IMG/VR virus record: IMGVR_UViG_3300033571_011074
Coordinates: 1-20,435 of that record
DNA: 20,435 nt
Direction: 5' to 3' (one strand)
Origin: a virus
Of the stretch, positions 7,789-20,435 are shown piece after piece. The notes beneath the pieces were generated by a model. It saw only the letters and a program-made list of their open reading frames with translations, had not been told where the DNA came from and searched no databases. The translations under genes were made by a program, and so were the position numbers. The stretch's first letter is position 1; each line of letters begins with the position of its first letter.

Positions 7789-9264
7789 TCAACCTAACTT
7801 TATAAATTTTTGCAATGAACTTAGATTAGCCATGTTAGTTATAGAACTAACGTTTTTCCCTGAAGCCGCCGCTAAGTCTAACGCGGCCTGTTCATATACG
7901 CTTGCTTGTTTATTAATTTTGCCGTCGGTTAGTCCGCCGAATGAATTGCCGCCGCCAAGTTTAGTGCCACCTAGTGCAGGTAGTTGTTTTGCTACTGCTA
8001 CAGCGATTCCAGCGGCCGCAACTGGATTCTTAATAATGCCTTGTACGCCGTTTCGTTTGACCATAGCTACCAAGCTCAATGCTCCTGCTATAGTAGTGGG
8101 ATTAATAGCTTTACCTACTCCAATATTTCCGCCACTTATTTTATCTAAGAATTGACCGCCTTGTTGTGTAATATTTTTGTTTAACTGACTTAACTTGTCG
8201 CCTATTTGTTCTGCTAAGTTTGCAGGAGGTTTATTACCTAAATTAGGAGTTGTTACTGCGCCACCTGGACTTATAACTCCAGCTACTGCCGCTGTTCCTG
8301 CTATAACAGTAGCAGTAGTTTGTGCTATCGCCGCGGCTGCACGAGCTTGAATAGGAGTTGGACCTGTTATAAGATCGCCGGCGCCACCAGTGGTCCATCC
8401 GGGCTCTTGTTCAGTCAGGCCTGGTTCTGGATCATCGGGCCATTCATCTTCGGGAGGGAAGCCGCTAGGATCGTCGTTACTGACATCTGGCATTTCTCCG
8501 CCTTGTTCGTTGGCCGCGCTATTAGCAGAACTATATTTCTTTTGATCTTCGTGTTCTGTAGAAGGACGAAATACCACTGACTCATACTGTAGTGTAATAG
8601 TCCAAGTAAGTGTACTTCCAGCATCTGTATAGTCTAATGTATCGTGTTGTACTGCTGTAATCTTAGGATTGATCAATAATGTTTGGTCGACCCAACCACC
8701 GTACTCCCTATTAACAACCATAGTGATAAAGAAGTTATTATTTGCATCATTGATACTGGCTAAACCGTATTCGCCTTTAAAACCTAATTTAAGTTGATCT
8801 GGTTGCATGGCATTGAAGCCAACATCATTAAAGTTGTTAGGGAAATAATATTCCATGTAGGCCGTCAACAACGCTTGAAAGGCATTGTCAACAGTATCGA
8901 GGAATTTTACTTGTACTTGTTGCCAATCAACACGAGTATGAACGTGTCTCTGTTTATTATATTGATTTAAAGTTTGTGTAGTTATATTCCAAGTTGGCAA
9001 GTCTACACTTTGCGCTCTAAGAGTTAATTCACTTAATAATTGATCAACTCTATCTGATCCTATTTTTTTAGACAAAAGCTGAGTAGCACCCGGACTTAGC
9101 TCAAAGCCAACTGTCCAGTTATGTTTAAGTCTAGGAATCCTACTAAATTTAACCCAGTTGGTTGTAGCAAGGTCTTTGTCACGGGATTCCGGGGGTTTGT
9201 TATTCCCCGGAATATAATAACCAAATGCGTAGTGAGGATCCTGTTTAAGCTCAAAATCAGCCAT
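7789..9264 (-). CDS. Long tail-tube-fold structural protein (gp19/gp48/gp54-like N-terminus)
   Basis: This 491-aa protein has three parts. Residues 1-235 look like a tail-tube domain: FLDTVDNAFQALLTAYMEYY, GLASINDANNNFFITMVVN, then STLTWTITLQYESVVF, the same terminal strand pattern as gp19 (AMTIQMTVQYDAADY). Residues 240-300 are an acidic Pro-rich linker. Residues 300-491 are Ala/Gly-rich with hydrophobic stretches (AAAIAQTTATVIAGTAAVAG at 310-329 and AAAGIAVAVAKQLPALGG at 416-433). The gene overlaps gp19 by 8 nt. T4 gp48 and gp54 are baseplate proteins with tube-like folds that start the tail tube, so this is a candidate initiator or terminator. Which of the two, or a new type, cannot be settled here. 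No Shine-Dalgarno, so probably coupled to gp19. Confidence 0.82.
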   Translation of the reverse strand: MADFELKQDPHYAFGYYIPGNNKPPESRDKDLATTNWVKFSRIPRLKHNWTVGFELSPGATQLLSKKIGSDRVDQLLSELTLRAQSVDLPTWNITTQTLNQYNKQRHVHTRVDWQQVQVKFLDTVDNAFQALLTAYMEYYFPNNFNDVGFNAMQPDQLKLGFKGEYGLASINDANNNFFITMVVNREYGGWVDQTLLINPKITAVQHDTLDYTDAGSTLTWTITLQYESVVFRPSTEHEDQKKYSSANSAANEQGGEMPDVSNDDPSGFPPEDEWPDDPEPGLTEQEPGWTTGGAGDLITGPTPIQARAAAAIAQTTATVIAGTAAVAGVISPGGAVTTPNLGNKPPANLAEQIGDKLSQLNKNITQQGGQFLDKISGGNIGVGKAINPTTIAGALSLVAMVKRNGVQGIIKNPVAAAGIAVAVAKQLPALGGTKLGGGNSFGGLTDGKINKQASVYEQAALDLAAASGKNVSSITNMANLSSLQKFIKLG

Positions 9265-9889
9265 TTGTTGCAGAAGAACCTGTAGTACGTAGCGATGGGC
9301 CTAAGCCTAGTTCGCCTAGCTGACCAGGTAGATTTGGAACAACTGCGTTACCAATCTGATAGTCTGCGGCATCGTACTGAACAGTCATCTGAATCGTCAT
9401 AGCATCACTAGAACTGTAGTCCATGTCGCCAAACTGAACGTCTTGCAAGAAGCAACCGTTTAAGCTCCATGTATCGATTACGCCAGTTACATCGTCTTGA
9501 CTGCCGTCTAGACTTTGAATTAACAAACCAAATTTATAGTTAGCGCCTGCTAATGGACCGCTTTGATTTGCGTGATCCATCTGACGACCTAACTGTGCAG
9601 AGATTAAACTAGTTACGCTGTTGCTGACATCATCACGAACAGTAATGCTAATTGGGCTCCATGTGTGCTTACCGGCTACATAGATTTTACTGTTGTAAAC
9701 GTCTAGTTCAACTGCTTGGTGCTGTAGTTGTGGACGACCGACACTTACGATTTGACTAGTAAATGTGTTTGCGCCTGGCATTAAGCCATTACCTGCACCA
9801 ATAAAGACTACACGAAATCTATATTTTAGCTTGGGCATTAGGAGAGGTGAATCGCCACCAGGAACTCCGAATTTTGATAATTGTGCCAT
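9257..9889 (-). CDS. 19: Tail tube protein (gp19-like)
   Basis: This 210-aa protein forms the inner tube of the contractile tail; T4 gp19 has 163 aa. Diagnostic features are an early strand KLKYRFRVVFIG, the segment FTSQIVSVGRPQLQHQAVELDVYNSKIYVAGKHTW (about 43-77), a helical part with SVTSLISAQLGRQMDH, and the final strands FLQDVQFGDMDYSSSDAMTIQMTVQYD. About 25 extra C-terminal residues are Gly/Pro/Ser-rich. The ATG at 9887-9889 has a strong AAGGAG and a late motif 30 nt upstream. It follows the sheath gene, as in T4 (18 then 19), but a strong terminator lies between them, so the two can be expressed separately. Confidence 0.95.
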   Translation of the reverse strand: MAQLSKFGVPGGDSPLLMPKLKYRFRVVFIGAGNGLMPGANTFTSQIVSVGRPQLQHQAVELDVYNSKIYVAGKHTWSPISITVRDDVSNSVTSLISAQLGRQMDHANQSGPLAGANYKFGLLIQSLDGSQDDVTGVIDTWSLNGCFLQDVQFGDMDYSSSDAMTIQMTVQYDAADYQIGNAVVPNLPGQLGELGLGPSLRTTGSSATNG

Positions 9890-10029: not shown

Positions 10030-12417
10030 TTATGATAATGCGCCTGTATTAACGATACGTACTGGGATATAGATAAATTCAGCGGCCTTGGTAGGCTCAA
10101 TTGCAATATCAATCCATAGTTCATTAGCATCAATACGTGATGGGGTGTTATTTGTTGTATCGCAGACTACTAAGAAGTCATAGACACCACGCTTGGTTAA
10201 AATGTCTCCTAAGAAGCCATCAAACAGAGTTTTAACGTTTGCTCTTGTAGCTGTGTCGTTAGGTTCAAAGATAAACGGACGAGCTAGTGGATCAAAACGT
10301 TCACGCAAGTAAGCAACTAAGCGGGCTACATTAATGCGATCTAGTGCGCTGGCAATAGGACTTAGAGTCTTTTGACCAAATATTACTAGGCCTGTACCAG
10401 GGAAGTTAACCATTGGGTTAATCTTGTTAGCATACAATGTATCACGTTGGCCGTTGTTTAGTGCCAATGGCATAAACTCGCCTTCACCGTTGATATAACC
10501 AAAGTTAGAACAGTTAGTTACAACACCGCGTGTTAGACCAGCTGGGGCGAACCATGGATAACTAATGCTGTCGTTGTAAGCATAGGTACGCAATACTGCA
10601 TGGCTAGCAGGAGCAACTACATCATAACCGTTCAAGTCTGTGGTCAATACACTTGGATAGTACACAGCGGCTTCGCTAGATTTAGTAACAATACCGTCTT
10701 CGCCGTTTGTTCCAGCATTAGTACCGTTTACCCATTCAACCCAACCCGATGCATCAGGTCCTAATCTCAATGGACTGTCGCAGATAACAAATGCTGTTTC
10801 TTTACGGTCAACATTTAATGTTAACATTTCATCTAACAATTCAGGATAGCCAGGAGCCGCAATCAATGTAAATGCCATTGTTTCTTCACGGATCTGTTGG
10901 TTCTCAGTAATAGCTTTTTGCATAGCACGTACTACAACTTGACGTTGTGCTTTACGTCCCATGTAAGGTGCGCCGGCCTTAGGACCTGCGCTAATGTTAC
11001 CACTGACAGTATGCCATTGACCTTCGGCTGCATTGTACTGTTTAACATTATAAGTAGATACCATGCTGTTCCATAGTAACATGCCATCTGGATGTGTTAA
11101 TGGATCTGGTGTATCTTCTTCGCTGTATGGAGTTGCTCCAAAGCCCATCATGCTATTGTCAGCAGGAGTAGCTGTTAAGTCAGCAAATACTACACCATCA
11201 GGAGTTGTTTGGTCAGCATTGTTACGCAATTGCCATGCACTACCATCATATACTTTAATTTGTGGATAGTTTTCTAAATCGTTAGTATCAACCCAAATGT
11301 CAGCTACTTGTGCATTTTCTGGTTCAGCTGTATCAATAGTTACACTATTACCATTTTGAACAACGCTTCTCCACTGGCCATTGGCTTTAACATAAATGTC
11401 AGCTACTAGTTCAGTATTATACCATAGTGTGCCGTCTGCTGTTGGGCCAACTGGTTCTGTAGCTTTTGCTTCGTATACTAGTGTATCCCATACACCGGCA
11501 CTATAACGACGTAGTTCAAACTGAGCATTGTTTGCTGTAGATCTAGCATAAACACTACCTGTTTGTAATCCTGTACCAAATGCTGTTTCGGCTGCATTGT
11601 CATTGTCATAAACGCTAACAGGCACACTGGCAAACTGACCAGTAGTGCTACTGTAACGCTTAACTGCTGGAGAGAAACCTTTGTTAGGTGTTGTAGTTTT
11701 AAACCATACATCACCTTCATTGGCTGCACTAGGAACATTATAGTGAGGAGCAACGGTAACTGTTGTGAAAATGCCTCTAGCAGTTGTTAGGGCACCGCTG
11801 TTAACGTCAAACCATGCACCGTTGATTTTCTTAAAATAGTTGTTGGCTGTGGTAGTTACTACAACACCATAGTCACCGTTTACCCCTAAGTTGCTTAAAG
11901 GTACATTGTTATTTGTAACTTGGCCTGCGCCGAATACTGTAATGTCTTTTGCTATCCATTTGTCATCAGACGCTTCGAATAGGCCCCAAACTGTATCGGC
12001 TGTGTCTAACCAGTAAGTGCCGTTAGCTGGTAATCCTGCGGGTTCAGTTGCTGTAGCTTCTAATTGTGCTAGGTCTACGTCTGCACGTAATACATAAGCA
12101 CGGTTTGCTAGACCTAAATAGCTGTAAGTTGCTAATAGACCATATTCGTTTAATTCACTACCATGCAATGGTGTGCCATTTAAACTCTTGAATTCTGGGG
12201 CGCCGAATAATTGCGCTAGTTCGCGTTGACTAGTTAAAAGTACAGGTTGTGCTGCCGCACTCTTAAGTGTTTTTGCGGCTAGTCCTGTTCCGCCAGGTAC
12301 CGATTTATTTTCCGCTGTAGCCAGGATAATAAGTGGAACTGTTCCTTGACCTGCGCTTGCATACGCACTTTCGTCAATAACACTTACCGCTACGCCTGGA
12401 GAAACTAATGTTGCCAT
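10030..12417 (-). CDS. 18: Tail sheath protein (gp18-like) with inserted repeat modules
   Basis: This 795-aa protein (T4 gp18: 659) is the contractile outer sheath. The start is the ATG at 12415-12417, with AGAGGA nine bases upstream and the typical MATLVSPGVAVSVID; an ATG 27 nt further upstream has no such support. Residues 1-120 and about 485-795 are sheath-like, ending in the conserved part LARPFIFEPNDTATRANV, GVYDFLVVCD, ELWIDIAIEPTKAAEFIYI. Between them, about 124-471, lie some seven short modules of the form GD/T-x-W/Y-hydrophobic ... G-x-W, for example DGTLWYNTELVADIYVKANG (329-348) and the segments around 235, 288, 371 and 444. These resemble fibre decorations and would sit on the tail surface. 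Three late motifs precede the gene; a strong terminator follows. Confidence 0.96.
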   Translation of the reverse strand: MATLVSPGVAVSVIDESAYASAGQGTVPLIILATAENKSVPGGTGLAAKTLKSAAAQPVLLTSQRELAQLFGAPEFKSLNGTPLHGSELNEYGLLATYSYLGLANRAYVLRADVDLAQLEATATEPAGLPANGTYWLDTADTVWGLFEASDDKWIAKDITVFGAGQVTNNNVPLSNLGVNGDYGVVVTTTANNYFKKINGAWFDVNSGALTTARGIFTTVTVAPHYNVPSAANEGDVWFKTTTPNKGFSPAVKRYSSTTGQFASVPVSVYDNDNAAETAFGTGLQTGSVYARSTANNAQFELRRYSAGVWDTLVYEAKATEPVGPTADGTLWYNTELVADIYVKANGQWRSVVQNGNSVTIDTAEPENAQVADIWVDTNDLENYPQIKVYDGSAWQLRNNADQTTPDGVVFADLTATPADNSMMGFGATPYSEEDTPDPLTHPDGMLLWNSMVSTYNVKQYNAAEGQWHTVSGNISAGPKAGAPYMGRKAQRQVVVRAMQKAITENQQIREETMAFTLIAAPGYPELLDEMLTLNVDRKETAFVICDSPLRLGPDASGWVEWVNGTNAGTNGEDGIVTKSSEAAVYYPSVLTTDLNGYDVVAPASHAVLRTYAYNDSISYPWFAPAGLTRGVVTNCSNFGYINGEGEFMPLALNNGQRDTLYANKINPMVNFPGTGLVIFGQKTLSPIASALDRINVARLVAYLRERFDPLARPFIFEPNDTATRANVKTLFDGFLGDILTKRGVYDFLVVCDTTNNTPSRIDANELWIDIAIEPTKAAEFIYIPVRIVNTGALS

Positions 12418-15504: not shown

Positions 15505-15522
15505 TTGCTATTAGGACAAGAA

Positions 15523-16530
15523 ATGGCACGTTTATCGCTTTGGAGAAACTATAAAAGTAAGGACTATTATTTCATTGATAGTGCCGTAAAAAATCAGTTT
15601 GAAATAGGTGGTACTGGTGTTTATGTACACAAGTACTTGGGCCCCGATGTCAGCGATCAAAAGATAAAAAACAAAGACATCCCTGAAATTACTATTCAAG
15701 ACGTTATTTTCATGGAAAACAGGGACCGCAAGTATGAACAGGATATCTATGAGCTTAGGGGTGTTTACCAAGTAAGCGATGCTGATTTTGACCTTAGCCA
15801 GTTTGGATTATTTTTACAAACTGATACAATTTTTATTACTTTTCATATCAACGACATGATAGCTCGCATGGGCAGAAAACTCATGGCAGGTGATGTACTA
15901 GAGCTACCACATCAAATTGATGATACAGCATTAGATACTACCAAAGCGCCTATGCGTAAGTTTTACGTTGTGCAAGATGCGGCCAAAGGTCAAGAGGGAT
16001 ATAGTCCTACTTGGTGGCCGCATATTTGGCGTGTTAAATGTGTACCGTTAACAGACAGTCAAGAATACAAACAAATTTTAGGCGATCCTAATGATCCCGA
16101 TAGTATTACTGCTAATCAAGGAACACTAAACACTTTATTGGATATTACAGATGCTATTGTTGCTGAAGCGGAATCTAATAGTCCGACAGTAACTCCATTG
16201 ACTCAGCATTTAGTAAACTATGCAGATGAAACTCCTGGATGGGAGCCTGGCCAACCGGTGCCCATTGGCGACAGCTTTCCGTTAGATCCTAATCAAGGTG
16301 ACTTGTATATTCGCAATGACTTTAAACCGCATCGTTTATTCCAATTCAGAGGTAAACGCTGGCATAGAATGTACGACAATATTGATACTAGTACATGGAC
16401 CAGTAAAACAATTAATGCCGGTGGATTTATTAATAACGAAAATCTTACAGCCATTGGCAAACGCGAGTTTGAAGAAAGACAAGCCCTTAGTAAGATTGTT
16501 ACCAGTAGAAAACCTAAGGCGGACAACTAA
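15523..16530 (+). CDS. 14: Neck protein (gp14-like) with an added C-terminal module
   Basis: The protein has 335 aa; T4 gp14 has 256. gp14 is a neck/tail-connector protein that closes the filled head and joins it to the tail. The start is the ATG at 15523 with AGGAC eight bases upstream; the in-frame TTG at 15505 overlaps the promoter. The family region covers about 1-185: SAVKNQFEIGGTGVYVHKYL, the segment with MENRDRKYEQDIYELRGVY, FGLFLQTDTIFITFHINDM, then GDVLELPHQ and WRVKCVPL. These parallel T4 gp14 order. Residues about 245-285 hold an extra fibre-like module (NQGDLYIRNDFKPHRLFQFR, then W280). It is the first gene of the plus-strand unit, and its TAA overlaps the gp15 ATG by one base. 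Confidence 0.88.
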   Translation: MARLSLWRNYKSKDYYFIDSAVKNQFEIGGTGVYVHKYLGPDVSDQKIKNKDIPEITIQDVIFMENRDRKYEQDIYELRGVYQVSDADFDLSQFGLFLQTDTIFITFHINDMIARMGRKLMAGDVLELPHQIDDTALDTTKAPMRKFYVVQDAAKGQEGYSPTWWPHIWRVKCVPLTDSQEYKQILGDPNDPDSITANQGTLNTLLDITDAIVAEAESNSPTVTPLTQHLVNYADETPGWEPGQPVPIGDSFPLDPNQGDLYIRNDFKPHRLFQFRGKRWHRMYDNIDTSTWTSKTINAGGFINNENLTAIGKREFEERQALSKIVTSRKPKADN

Positions 16531-17879
16531 TGCAACAGTTTTTTTATGATCAGCAGATAAAAAGATATCTAGAACAATTTATGCGCCTGTTTGCAGGACT
16601 AAGTGTTCGCATGGGTGTAGATAAAAATGGCACAGAAATTTTTCAACGAGTTCCTGTGCGTTACGGTGACACTAGTCGAATGGTAGCACATATATTGTCC
16701 AATAACAGTGAAAATGCATTGAATACTGTGCCCATGATCAGTGTTCATATTCAATCATTTAGTATGAATTCGGCTCGCAGAAACAATCCTACTTATCAAG
16801 ACAAAGTACAAGTCTACGAAAAAACTTACAATAAAAATCTCGGAGTATATGAAAGCAGTACCGGTGACACTTATACAGTTGAACGCTATATGCCAGTACC
16901 TTATGATTTAGAAGTTGTTTGCGACATTTGTACCAGTAATACTGACCAAAAAATGCAGATCTTAGAGCAATTGGCAGTGGCATTTAATCCTGGTGTTAAT
17001 ATTCGCAGTAGCGGAAACGTGTTTGATTGGAGTGCTTTAACTTACGTTGAAATGACTAATGTGCAATGGAGTAATCGTAGTTTACCAGTAGGCAATGACG
17101 AGCAACTAGATTTTGCTACAGTAACTTTTATAATGCCAATTTGGATCAATCCTCCTGCTAAAGTTAAACGTCAAGTTCTTATCTATAACATTATAGGTAG
17201 CATTCAAACTGCTACTAGCGGATATGATTTAGATACTTTTCCAGAAACTTTTACCACCGACGAACCAACTACTAAATCATATCTGGTATTGACTTATGAA
17301 AATCGCAAAATAGAAGTAGAAGGCAATAAAGTATATCTGTTAAACAGCACAGGACAAAATGTTGGCTTAGAATGGTTAAACGAAATTAAACCGTACGGAG
17401 AACTTCGTCCTGGAGTTAGTCAACTTAGACTAAGGCCCAGCGAATCTCCAAATCCAGGATTCAAAGATACAGATATCATTGGCACTATAGCCTATGACAG
17501 TGATCCTACTAGACTACATTTTACTATTGACCAAAATACTATGCCAAACGACACACTAGACTTAGTCAATGGTATTATTGATCCTAGTAAAAATGCACCC
17601 GGTACTGGTAATTTGCCTAACGCGGCTATAGGACAACGTTACTTGTTAGTTGCAGATACTCCTAATATTCCTCAGTGGAATAATGTAGGAGCTAAGGCCA
17701 ATGATATCATCGAGTTCAATGGAACTAACTGGTATGTTGCATTTAACAGTCAAACAGAACAGGAACTAAATATTGTTACTAATGCTAACACAATGTTAAA
17801 ATACAAATGGGTTGGCGGCGAATGGATCGATGTTTATCAAGGCATTTATAAAGAAGGTTACTGGAGACTGTATTTGTGA
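16530..17879 (+). CDS. 15: Tail sheath stabiliser/completion protein (gp15-like), C-terminally extended
   Basis: The protein has 449 aa; T4 gp15 has 272. gp15 caps the finished tail and holds the sheath in register at the neck. The N-terminal 215 residues follow T4 gp15: FFYDQQIKRYLEQFMRLFAGLSV, IFQRVPVRYGDTSRM, VPMISVHIQSFSMN, YMPVPYDLEVVCDI, MQILEQLAVAFNPGVNI and the final strand with FIMPIWINPPAKVKR. Residues about 240-449 are additional and include GQRYLLVAD ... FNGTNWYVAF (368-405) and KWVGGEWIDVYQ (426-437), modules like those inserted in the sheath. The ATG overlaps the gp14 TAA; its own TGA overlaps the next gene's GTG by 4 nt. Confidence 0.88.
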   Translation: MQQFFYDQQIKRYLEQFMRLFAGLSVRMGVDKNGTEIFQRVPVRYGDTSRMVAHILSNNSENALNTVPMISVHIQSFSMNSARRNNPTYQDKVQVYEKTYNKNLGVYESSTGDTYTVERYMPVPYDLEVVCDICTSNTDQKMQILEQLAVAFNPGVNIRSSGNVFDWSALTYVEMTNVQWSNRSLPVGNDEQLDFATVTFIMPIWINPPAKVKRQVLIYNIIGSIQTATSGYDLDTFPETFTTDEPTTKSYLVLTYENRKIEVEGNKVYLLNSTGQNVGLEWLNEIKPYGELRPGVSQLRLRPSESPNPGFKDTDIIGTIAYDSDPTRLHFTIDQNTMPNDTLDLVNGIIDPSKNAPGTGNLPNAAIGQRYLLVADTPNIPQWNNVGAKANDIIEFNGTNWYVAFNSQTEQELNIVTNANTMLKYKWVGGEWIDVYQGIYKEGYWRLYL

Positions 17880-18367: not shown

Positions 18368-18707
18368 ACTAGTCGAATTTAGAAGTATAGATCTTCTTCA
18401 TTGTTGGTCTAAACAATTTTTTAATCCTTATCTTAATCGACTTTACCGGGACAATGTCAGTTATGTTCAAAGATGGTACTTTGAAGTATCTCATTGCTTT
18501 AATATAGAAAATCCTACAGCAGTATCAAAGCAACTAATTTATGATCACGACTTCAGAGAAAGTTTAATTCGTGCCTGTGACTTAGACATGAGCAGGTGTC
18601 AATATTATTCCCAATATGAAGAATACGAGCCAGCGGCTTTATATTGGATGCCGAAGTTAAAACGCTGGAAAGGCAAGTTTGTAGCTTGCCGATCACTGGC
18701 CGCGTAA
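18312..18707 (+). CDS. Unknown 131-aa protein overlapping the Nudix gene
   Basis: I do not recognise this protein. It has many aromatic residues (RDNVSYVQRWYFEVSHCF, CQYYSQYEEYEPAALYW) and basic ends (KLKRWKGKFVACR), with four cysteines (C31, C62, C88, C96 approximately) and a helical middle. It has no membrane segment. The ATG at 18312 lies 56 nt inside the Nudix gene in another frame, and its Shine-Dalgarno is weak (AAAAGA). The open frame runs on for 340 nt beyond the Nudix stop with phage-like codon use, which is the main support for it being real. Its 3' end overlaps the convergent fibre gene by 15 nt. Confidence 0.72.
   Translation: MTAKVIPFPITPPAQPQYKLVEFRSIDLLHCWSKQFFNPYLNRLYRDNVSYVQRWYFEVSHCFNIENPTAVSKQLIYDHDFRESLIRACDLDMSRCQYYSQYEEYEPAALYWMPKLKRWKGKFVACRSLAA
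18672..18690 (-). terminator. Weak hairpin after the tail-fibre stop
   Basis: GGCAAG/CTTGCC forms a 6-bp stem with a 7-nt loop, 2 nt beyond the fibre stop on the minus strand, followed by only TTT. It lies inside the convergent 131-aa gene. It is a possible weak terminator for the fibre transcript. Confidence 0.35.
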
Positions 18708-20435
18708 TTCTGCTAATTCTGCTTTTACAGCATCTAGTTCTGCTTTAAGGTCTTTGATACTTTCAATCAATAGACCTACCATGCTTCCGTAGTTAACAGT
18801 TAGAATATCATCTTCATGTCCAACCTTAACTGCTTCTGGTAATACCTTTTGTACTTCCTGAGCAATTACACCAGTGCCATGTGTTTTAGTGTCAATACGA
18901 GTAAATGTTACACCACGAAGTTGAAGGACTTTGTTTAGAGCATCTGGAATTAACTGAATATTTTCTTTTAGTCTAACATCCGAATAAGCAGTAACTTCGC
19001 CTGTAGCAGTAATGCCGCCACGAACATCTAGTTCACCGTGGCGCATAGCTGTATAACCAGAGCCTGCACTCCAGCCATATGTGCTGAACCAGTTATCGGT
19101 GTCTAAACCAAAGTGAGCACCGTATACGCCTTCTCTATGGAAACTGATGTTACATGCTCCGCTACCTGCGTTGTTAATTTCAAGTTGACTACTGTTGCCT
19201 GAGGCCAATGACACACCTGTCATACGCGGTGTAATTTTTGCAGTTGTGCCTAGGCCAGCAAAGTTACTATAGCCTGCTCCAATACCGCCACTGACTACTA
19301 AAGCACCAGTAGTTGTACCTGAGCTACCTGTTGTATTAGTAATACTGATTGCACTACCTGTACTATTGCCGCGGCCAGTTACGCTACTTAATGTATCTGC
19401 TTCTGTTGCTGTAATAGTTACTGACTTATTGGTACTATTAAAACTTACACTAGCAATGCCGCCTCCTGCAAATCTTAGATTGTCGCTGTTTGATCCTGCA
19501 CTGAATTGTACTGTGCCGCCACTATCCGCAATATTTTTAAAAATACTTTGACTGCTACCCTTGTCAGTGTTAGTTACACGTAAAGCAACGTTAGCAGTAT
19601 CTACGTCAACGTCAATACCAGTACCGCTGACTACACGGAGGTTAGTTCCAACTGCGCTGGTTCCAGTTGAGCTCCATGAATATCCACTATCACTATCGAC
19701 TGCTTGTACTGTTTGTAGTGCGCTTAATGTCGTTGTACTTAGACTTGTAATATGTCCAGTAGCGTTAACTGCAATAACTGGAATAGCATTACCAGCTCCG
19801 TATGTTCCACTAACAGCACCGCTGTTTGCGTGGCTTAGTGCAACACCGCCTGTGCTGGCACTGGCCACAATTGGACTTGTAGCAGATATACTAGTTACGC
19901 CTGTGTTGGTAATTGTAACAGCGCCAGTTGCTCCACTTACGCTAATACCTGTACCTGCTACGTTGCTGGTTACACCTGCGTTAGTAACAGTAACAGTAGC
20001 ATTGCTTGCTCCGCTACCGCTAATTGTAATACCTGTTCCTGCGGATACTGCGGCCACATAATTTCCAGATGTTTCTGTACTCAAACTGATAGTTGCTGAA
20101 CCAAAACGGATATCGTAATAGTTTGTTCCGTCATTGGTAATTTGCCACTTACCGCTGGTTCCATTTTCTAACCAACGAATTGCAGTGGTAGCTTGTGCGC
20201 CACGTTTAACTTCAATACCTGCATTTTCAGTAGGTGTACCGCTGGTAAAATCGCTGTTTAAAGTTATAAGATTATCGGCAATGTTTAAATTAGCTGTGTT
20301 AATAGTAGTTGTAGTGCCGGATACAATTAAGTTTCCACCTACGTATAAGTTTTTGGCTACACCTAATCCACCAGAAATAACAACCGACCCTGTGCTTGTG
20401 CTGGTCGAATCAGTAGCATCTGTAAATGTACTAGG
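18693..20435 (-). CDS. Tail fibre with C-terminal S74 intramolecular chaperone, 5' end missing
   Basis: The frame is open to the right edge; 580 C-terminal residues are visible. They begin with the SGGLGVAKNLYVGGNLIVSG repeat type (21-40) and a module with AIRWLENGTSGKWQITNDGT (85-104), both typical of aquatic myovirus fibres. Three GTGI...TxTN repeats (about 134-157, 161-182, 271-294) and a second SGGIGAG copy (383-389) suggest a long trimeric beta fibre. The last 96 residues are an S74-type chaperone with the Ser485-Lys490 dyad (SDVRLKEN), GVIAQEVQKVLPEAV and a C-terminal coiled coil (IKDLKAELDAVKAELAELRG). In this family the chaperone trimerises the fibre, then cuts itself off just before the serine. 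The fibre probably binds host receptors. An in-frame TTG at 20082-20084 is internal, not the start. Confidence 0.93.
   Translation of the reverse strand, partial: PSTFTDATDSTSTSTGSVVISGGLGVAKNLYVGGNLIVSGTTTTINTANLNIADNLITLNSDFTSGTPTENAGIEVKRGAQATTAIRWLENGTSGKWQITNDGTNYYDIRFGSATISLSTETSGNYVAAVSAGTGITISGSGASNATVTVTNAGVTSNVAGTGISVSGATGAVTITNTGVTSISATSPIVASASTGGVALSHANSGAVSGTYGAGNAIPVIAVNATGHITSLSTTTLSALQTVQAVDSDSGYSWSSTGTSAVGTNLRVVSGTGIDVDVDTANVALRVTNTDKGSSQSIFKNIADSGGTVQFSAGSNSDNLRFAGGGIASVSFNSTNKSVTITATEADTLSSVTGRGNSTGSAISITNTTGSSGTTTGALVVSGGIGAGYSNFAGLGTTAKITPRMTGVSLASGNSSQLEINNAGSGACNISFHREGVYGAHFGLDTDNWFSTYGWSAGSGYTAMRHGELDVRGGITATGEVTAYSDVRLKENIQLIPDALNKVLQLRGVTFTRIDTKTHGTGVIAQEVQKVLPEAVKVGHEDDILTVNYGSMVGLLIESIKDLKAELDAVKAELAELRGQ

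Follow-up and report, generated by a model that had tools for sequence, protein, structure and literature searches.

Does the tail sheath protein encoded in this viral DNA truly carry an array of fiber-like repeats, and what might such an array do on a phage tail? We addressed this question in the window, the whole 20,435-nucleotide stretch that was analyzed (IMG/VR record IMGVR_UViG_3300033571_011074). The open reading frame, which starts MATLVSPGVAV, encodes a contractile tail sheath protein of the T4 gp18 family. Its C-terminal part matches Pfam Phage_sheath_1C above the cutoff (E 1.5e-10), the best-matching PHROG of the whole protein is phrog_10581, tail sheath (E 1e-235), hhalign against T4 gp18 gave a probability of 100, and a PDB search retrieved T4 gp18 and other T4-type sheath chains (E 1e-25 to 1e-27). 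According to Pfam and PHROG, the flanking genes encode tube proteins, a gp15-type sheath stabilizer, the head-tail adaptor Ad2, and a terminase, and the order of tail genes around the sheath is identical in the Pseudomonas jumbo phage PA5oct. A 90%-identical sheath was found on a 231-kb contig, so the window very likely represents part of a jumbo-phage genome. Two adjoining minus-strand proteins (9257-9889 and 7789-9264) each match tail tube PHROGs, the second bearing a long Gly/Ala-rich C-terminal extension, and a fiber or spike protein fragment at 18693-20435 (minus strand) terminates in a Peptidase_S74 intramolecular chaperone.

Profile alignment to T4-type sheaths runs continuously through both the N-terminal and the C-terminal core and sets the modules against T4 residues ~90 to 345, a stretch inside which the alignment itself is not meaningful. 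In T4 gp18, domain II comprises residues 88 to 97 and 189 to 345 and domain I comprises residues 98 to 188; domain I is a protruding domain that is free of sheath-sheath contacts and to which the retracted long tail fibers bind (PMC3004832). The chain of the window sheath exits and reenters the core where T4 domain II starts and stops. Because the modules lie opposite domains I and II, the array, as judged by this alignment, takes the place of these domains, which would be compatible with either replacement of or descent from them. A first-pass annotation of this DNA had placed the modules between conserved core segments, at the T4 surface domains, and the alignment agrees with it. Its term "inserted" is loose in that the array sits at the position of domains I and II and is not added to them. 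We consider it sound to infer, by analogy, that the outer domain would be surface exposed, because T4 domains I and II are outer and because published models place the additional domains of other sheaths away from the tube (PMC9230969).

TABLE 1 Features of the sheath gene and its product, in window positions
Feature	Residues	Position	Strand	Basis
Tail sheath protein gene (T4 gp18 homologue), 795 aa		10033..12417	minus	Pfam, PHROG, hhalign
N-terminal conserved sheath core	1-117	12067..12417	minus	72% mean pairwise identity, 31 relatives
Outer domain, seven predicted beta-meander modules, at the place of T4 gp18 domains I+II	118-478	10984..12066	minus	AF2; 53% mean pairwise identity
Module M1 (EPAGLPANGTYWLDT..W)	124-160	11938..12048	minus	HMM, AF2, profile-profile
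Module M2	171-208	11794..11907	minus	HMM, AF2, profile-profile
Module M3 (GDVWFKT..)	227-268	11614..11739	minus	HMM, AF2, profile-profile
Module M4 (GSVYARS..W)	277-316	11470..11589	minus	Conservation and segment profiles in relatives
Module M5 (GTLWYNT..W)	320-356	11350..11460	minus	HMM, AF2, profile-profile
Module M6 (ADIWVDT..W)	362-402	11212..11334	minus	AF2, profile-profile
Nonrepeat loop DQTTPxGVVFADLT, after M6	402-416	11170..11214	minus	82% mean pairwise identity
Module M7 (GMLLWNS..W)	437-473	10999..11109	minus	HMM, AF2, profile-profile
C-terminal sheath core, includes Phage_sheath_1C	479-795	10033..10983	minus	Residues 596-795: 79% mean pairwise identity

Shuffles, core controls, and structure prediction confirmed the internal repeats that the first-pass annotation had claimed and rule out a chance likeness of W/G-rich sequence. 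Where that annotation had described about seven G..W modules over residues 124 to 471 (11000-12060), we found exactly seven GxW modules of ~35 residues, M1 to M7, over residues 124 to 473 (10999-12048), and its span was essentially correct. With module boundaries that we picked ourselves, leave-one-out hidden Markov models (HMMs) that were each built from one copy scored M3, M5, and M7 above 1,000 of 1,000 shuffles, while the module score was reached by 33, 38, 26, and 89 of 1,000 shuffles for M1, M2, M4, and M6, respectively. Comparison of single-module family profiles (31 relatives), with the same boundaries, gave probabilities of 95% for M4-M6, 94% for M1-M6, 93% for M1-M5, 90% for M3-M6, and 87% for M3-M7, and 13 of the 21 module pairs outscored the best of 308 controls in which modules were compared with 40-residue windows of the sheath core. 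M2 and M4 each resemble most other copies weakly. By sequence, M2 is the weakest of the seven, yet it is clear in the predicted model; M4 is the least conserved module, and most larger relatives have no confident counterpart of it. Because both tests depend on the boundaries chosen, and because the iterated module profile was built with the window's own sheath included, the core controls and the absence of modules from T4-type sheaths are the fairer tests: the iterated profile had no match in the sheaths of T4, P-SSM2, P-RSM4, ACG-2014f, and Cr30. Elsewhere in the window, the gp15 homologue and its neighbor (15505-17879, plus strand) have C-terminal W-rich motifs that look module-like by eye. 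Homology of these motifs to the modules was not supported; the module profile gave a best E value of 0.04 against the gp15 homologue and the 15505-16530 protein in a seven-protein search.

Structure prediction, which the first-pass annotation had suggested as a check, was run on the outer region alone with 33 relatives in the alignment. AF2 (pLDDT 90.2, pTM 0.73) predicted a strand-strand-strand unit, a three-stranded beta-meander, repeated seven times, once per module, and not one single gp18 domain; a first full-length model had an overall pLDDT of 51 and was unusable in the core. A Foldseek search of the outer region against the PDB gave no match at an E of ≤0.001, and T4 gp18 was not among the 50 matches listed. 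A single ordinary gp18 domain is ruled out by the seven predicted meanders together with this lack of a Foldseek match. No known domain could be assigned either, as Pfam, PDB, and Foldseek searches returned no significant match: Big_14 matched weakly in 2 of the 33 outer-domain members (E 0.19), and carbohydrate-binding families gave no Pfam or PDB match. Thoeris anti-defense 1 was hit weakly by phmmer (E 0.09) but not by the profile searches, and we took this hit as chance. Among predicted viral proteins, Foldseek ranked another sheath protein first (E 4e-32); next came local matches to phage and giant-virus proteins of the tail fiber, collar, and collagen-like types.

We also searched 16 genomes or records with a profile of 44 modules. 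Most matches fell in the sheath gene, and five lay off the sheath. Three of the five were in a Phosso collagen-like protein, a cyanophage P-RSM4 protein rich in Gly, and a fiber-like protein on a 608-kb contig; the other two, in adjoining Phosso hypothetical proteins, were weak (E 0.002 and 0.007). T4 had no match to this profile. The fiber-type GxW module pattern, P..G.xW.DT...(Y)DG.xW, and its local fold are thus present by profile matches and by Foldseek viral matches, and both lines, few as the off-sheath cases are, support the earlier description of the modules as fiber-like.

Conservation of the array was assessed in a compact clade of 31 nonredundant sheaths of 782 to 811 aa; loci were found using compact-clade sheaths as queries, and other clades were partially sampled. 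All seven modules occur in order in 31 of 31 compact-clade sheaths, and the rapid gain or loss of modules that the first-pass annotation had anticipated among relatives is rejected within this clade. Divergence within the protein is greatest in the outer region, where the mean identity in the clade is 53%, compared with 72% for the N-terminal core and 64 to 79% for the C-terminal core. The nonrepeat loop at residues 402 to 416 is more conserved than the modules and is possibly a contact site. Window M5 is 41 to 72% identical to M5 of other phages and at most 28% identical to its own paralogues. At the level of sequence, then, modules are closer to their orthologues than to their neighbors (M5 examined), which suggests that the duplications are old and predate the clade.

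With segment profiles, M1, M3, and M6-7 were detected in order in most larger sheaths (878 to 1,180 aa), M2 and M5 more weakly, and M4 mostly not. Module matches are weak in the RaK2/121Q/GAP32 group, and single-copy match counts in larger relatives are threshold dependent and are not exact module numbers. These larger relatives carry additional segments in the M2-M3 and M3-M5 intervals; sheath size varies by whole extra segments at two sites and not by module number. An insert unchanged in all relatives, which the first-pass annotation would have counted against its reading, was therefore half observed: the architecture is constant within the clade, but large segment insertions separate clades. 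The 905-aa L102 sheath groups with the compact L012 and L014 in a tree built from the C-terminal core, so that two changes or more are required to explain the compact form; segments would thus come and go slowly. The nesting of L102 beside these two sheaths (784 to 788 aa) suggests independent loss or regain of a segment. The XacN1 sheath has no modules and forms a long, unsure branch in the same tree. An extra segment of the Atu_ph07 sheath (L083, residues 172 to 435) passes the Pfam cutoff for Flagellin_IN (E 9.5e-5), and one of L025 (residues 218 to 334) weakly matches FlgK D3 (E 0.015). Extra segments of L113 and L205 likewise resemble flagellin or hook-protein outer domains by eye.

Starting from the repeats, predicted fold, chain position, and in-order conservation documented above, we regard the outer domain as probably a fixed, surface-facing beta-repeat scaffold or platform that forms the outward part of the sheath subunit. 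We infer an origin by tandem duplication. Repeated duplication, in an ancestor of this jumbo-phage lineage, of a three-stranded G-x-x-W beta-meander of ~35 residues would have given the outer domain; phage fiber and collagen-like virion proteins contain this unit as well. Each module would then have become specialized for its place in the array, yielding a fixed scaffold that forms the tail's outer shell and displays its variable loops outward, together with the entire extra domains that larger relatives have at the two junctions. The constancy of the modules is compatible with a binding role, and glycan binding or fiber docking by the outer domain is possible.

An adhesive coat, in which the modules bind host glycans or particles weakly and make the whole tail shaft sticky, was the idea of the first-pass annotation. 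Homologous modules in fiber and collagen-like proteins, the greater divergence of the outer region than of the core (53% versus 64 to 79%), and the adhesion already proposed for additional sheath domains (PMC9230969) are all in line with it, but the region matches no known carbohydrate-binding family or solved structure and lacks the module turnover expected of a receptor-binding array, and we find a sticky shaft rather doubtful. The fixed number and order of modules and the strong conservation of loop 402-416 could instead reflect a purely mechanical role, in which modules interlock adjoining subunits and stabilize the heavy jumbo-phage tail or tune its contraction; a sheath-stabilizing extra domain suggested for phage 812, as cited in PMC9230969, points the same way. 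However, T4 domain I makes no intersubunit contacts at the same position (PMC3004832), and the outer region is the protein's most divergent part, so a mechanical role alone seems unlikely to us.

The domain could also offer tail whiskers or retracted fibers a place to dock, as T4 domain I does for retracted long tail fibers (PMC3004832). Hairs on the tail or capsid are carried by relatives with a sheath of the same family: CBB has tail whiskers, phAPEC6 has fibers at three sheath rings, and Atu_ph07 has mainly capsid whiskers (PMC5259590, PMC7247149, PMC6102473). The phAPEC6 fibers occupy only those three annular positions, yet the domain is on every subunit, and docking appears very improbable. 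Our confidence in the scaffold overlaps with that in these alternatives, since binding or interlocking could be additional properties of a scaffold. A bolder reading, which we judge quite unlikely, is that the sheath itself, beyond the baseplate fibers, is a multivalent adhesin whose specificity arises from loop variation and flagellin-like domain swaps at the two junctions; if so, seven modules per subunit would amount to about a thousand per tail at a T4-like subunit number. Should the outer domain only stabilize the tail, it would be a structural footnote. The favored reading, a fiber-related repeat scaffold with two extra-domain junctions, would supply a concrete architecture for the "additional domains" of one large jumbo-phage sheath family, and its defined modules make the role of the giant-phage outer sheath testable by deletion.

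Enlargement of the sheath exterior is a known habit of big phages, to which our analysis adds detail and a lineage-wide fixed feature. Evseev et al. (2022) described the sheaths of Atu_ph07, SCTP-2, and RaK2 as multidomain, type 3, with additional domains proposed for adhesion, stability, or appendage formation (PMC9230969), and the window sheath has the same arrangement of N- and C-terminal core with additional domains between. Type 3 additional domains are often Ig-like beta-sandwiches (typical, not obligatory); here, repeated three-stranded meanders are predicted. The word "repeat" is absent from the main text of that paper, and a search for literature on sheath repeat modules or extra domains found only it and morphology papers. 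Multidomain jumbo-phage sheaths with proposed adhesion are thus already published, while the repeat architecture appears to be undescribed. T4 gp18 has a domain I beta-barrel inserted in a domain II beta-sandwich and no GxW modules; in it and in this sheath, with its seven predicted meanders, the outer part sits at the same point of the chain, flanked by domain III segments. Phosso XYS97361.1 and P-RSM4 ADO98430.1, of the fiber/collar/collagen-like class, match the sheath modules in module profile and local fold, but such proteins have single modules beside collagen, Gly-rich, or fiber sequence, in contrast to the seven-fold array of the sheath. The phrog_10581 sheaths, matched by 33 of 33 outer-domain sequences, share homology with the window sheath that spans the core and a large part of the outer domain. 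In PA5oct, which shares the gene order of the window, and in 121Q, RaK2, GAP32, Atu_ph07, Phosso, and SCTP-2, the core is homologous (~38 to 47% identity over matched parts) and the outer domain lies in the same place with 2 to 6 detectable modules; these sheaths are longer (879 to 1,091 aa), with fewer recognizable modules and additional domains. The compact form of 782 to 811 aa, in contrast, has its seven modules nearly back-to-back, without the ~100- to 210-aa extra segments of its larger relatives.
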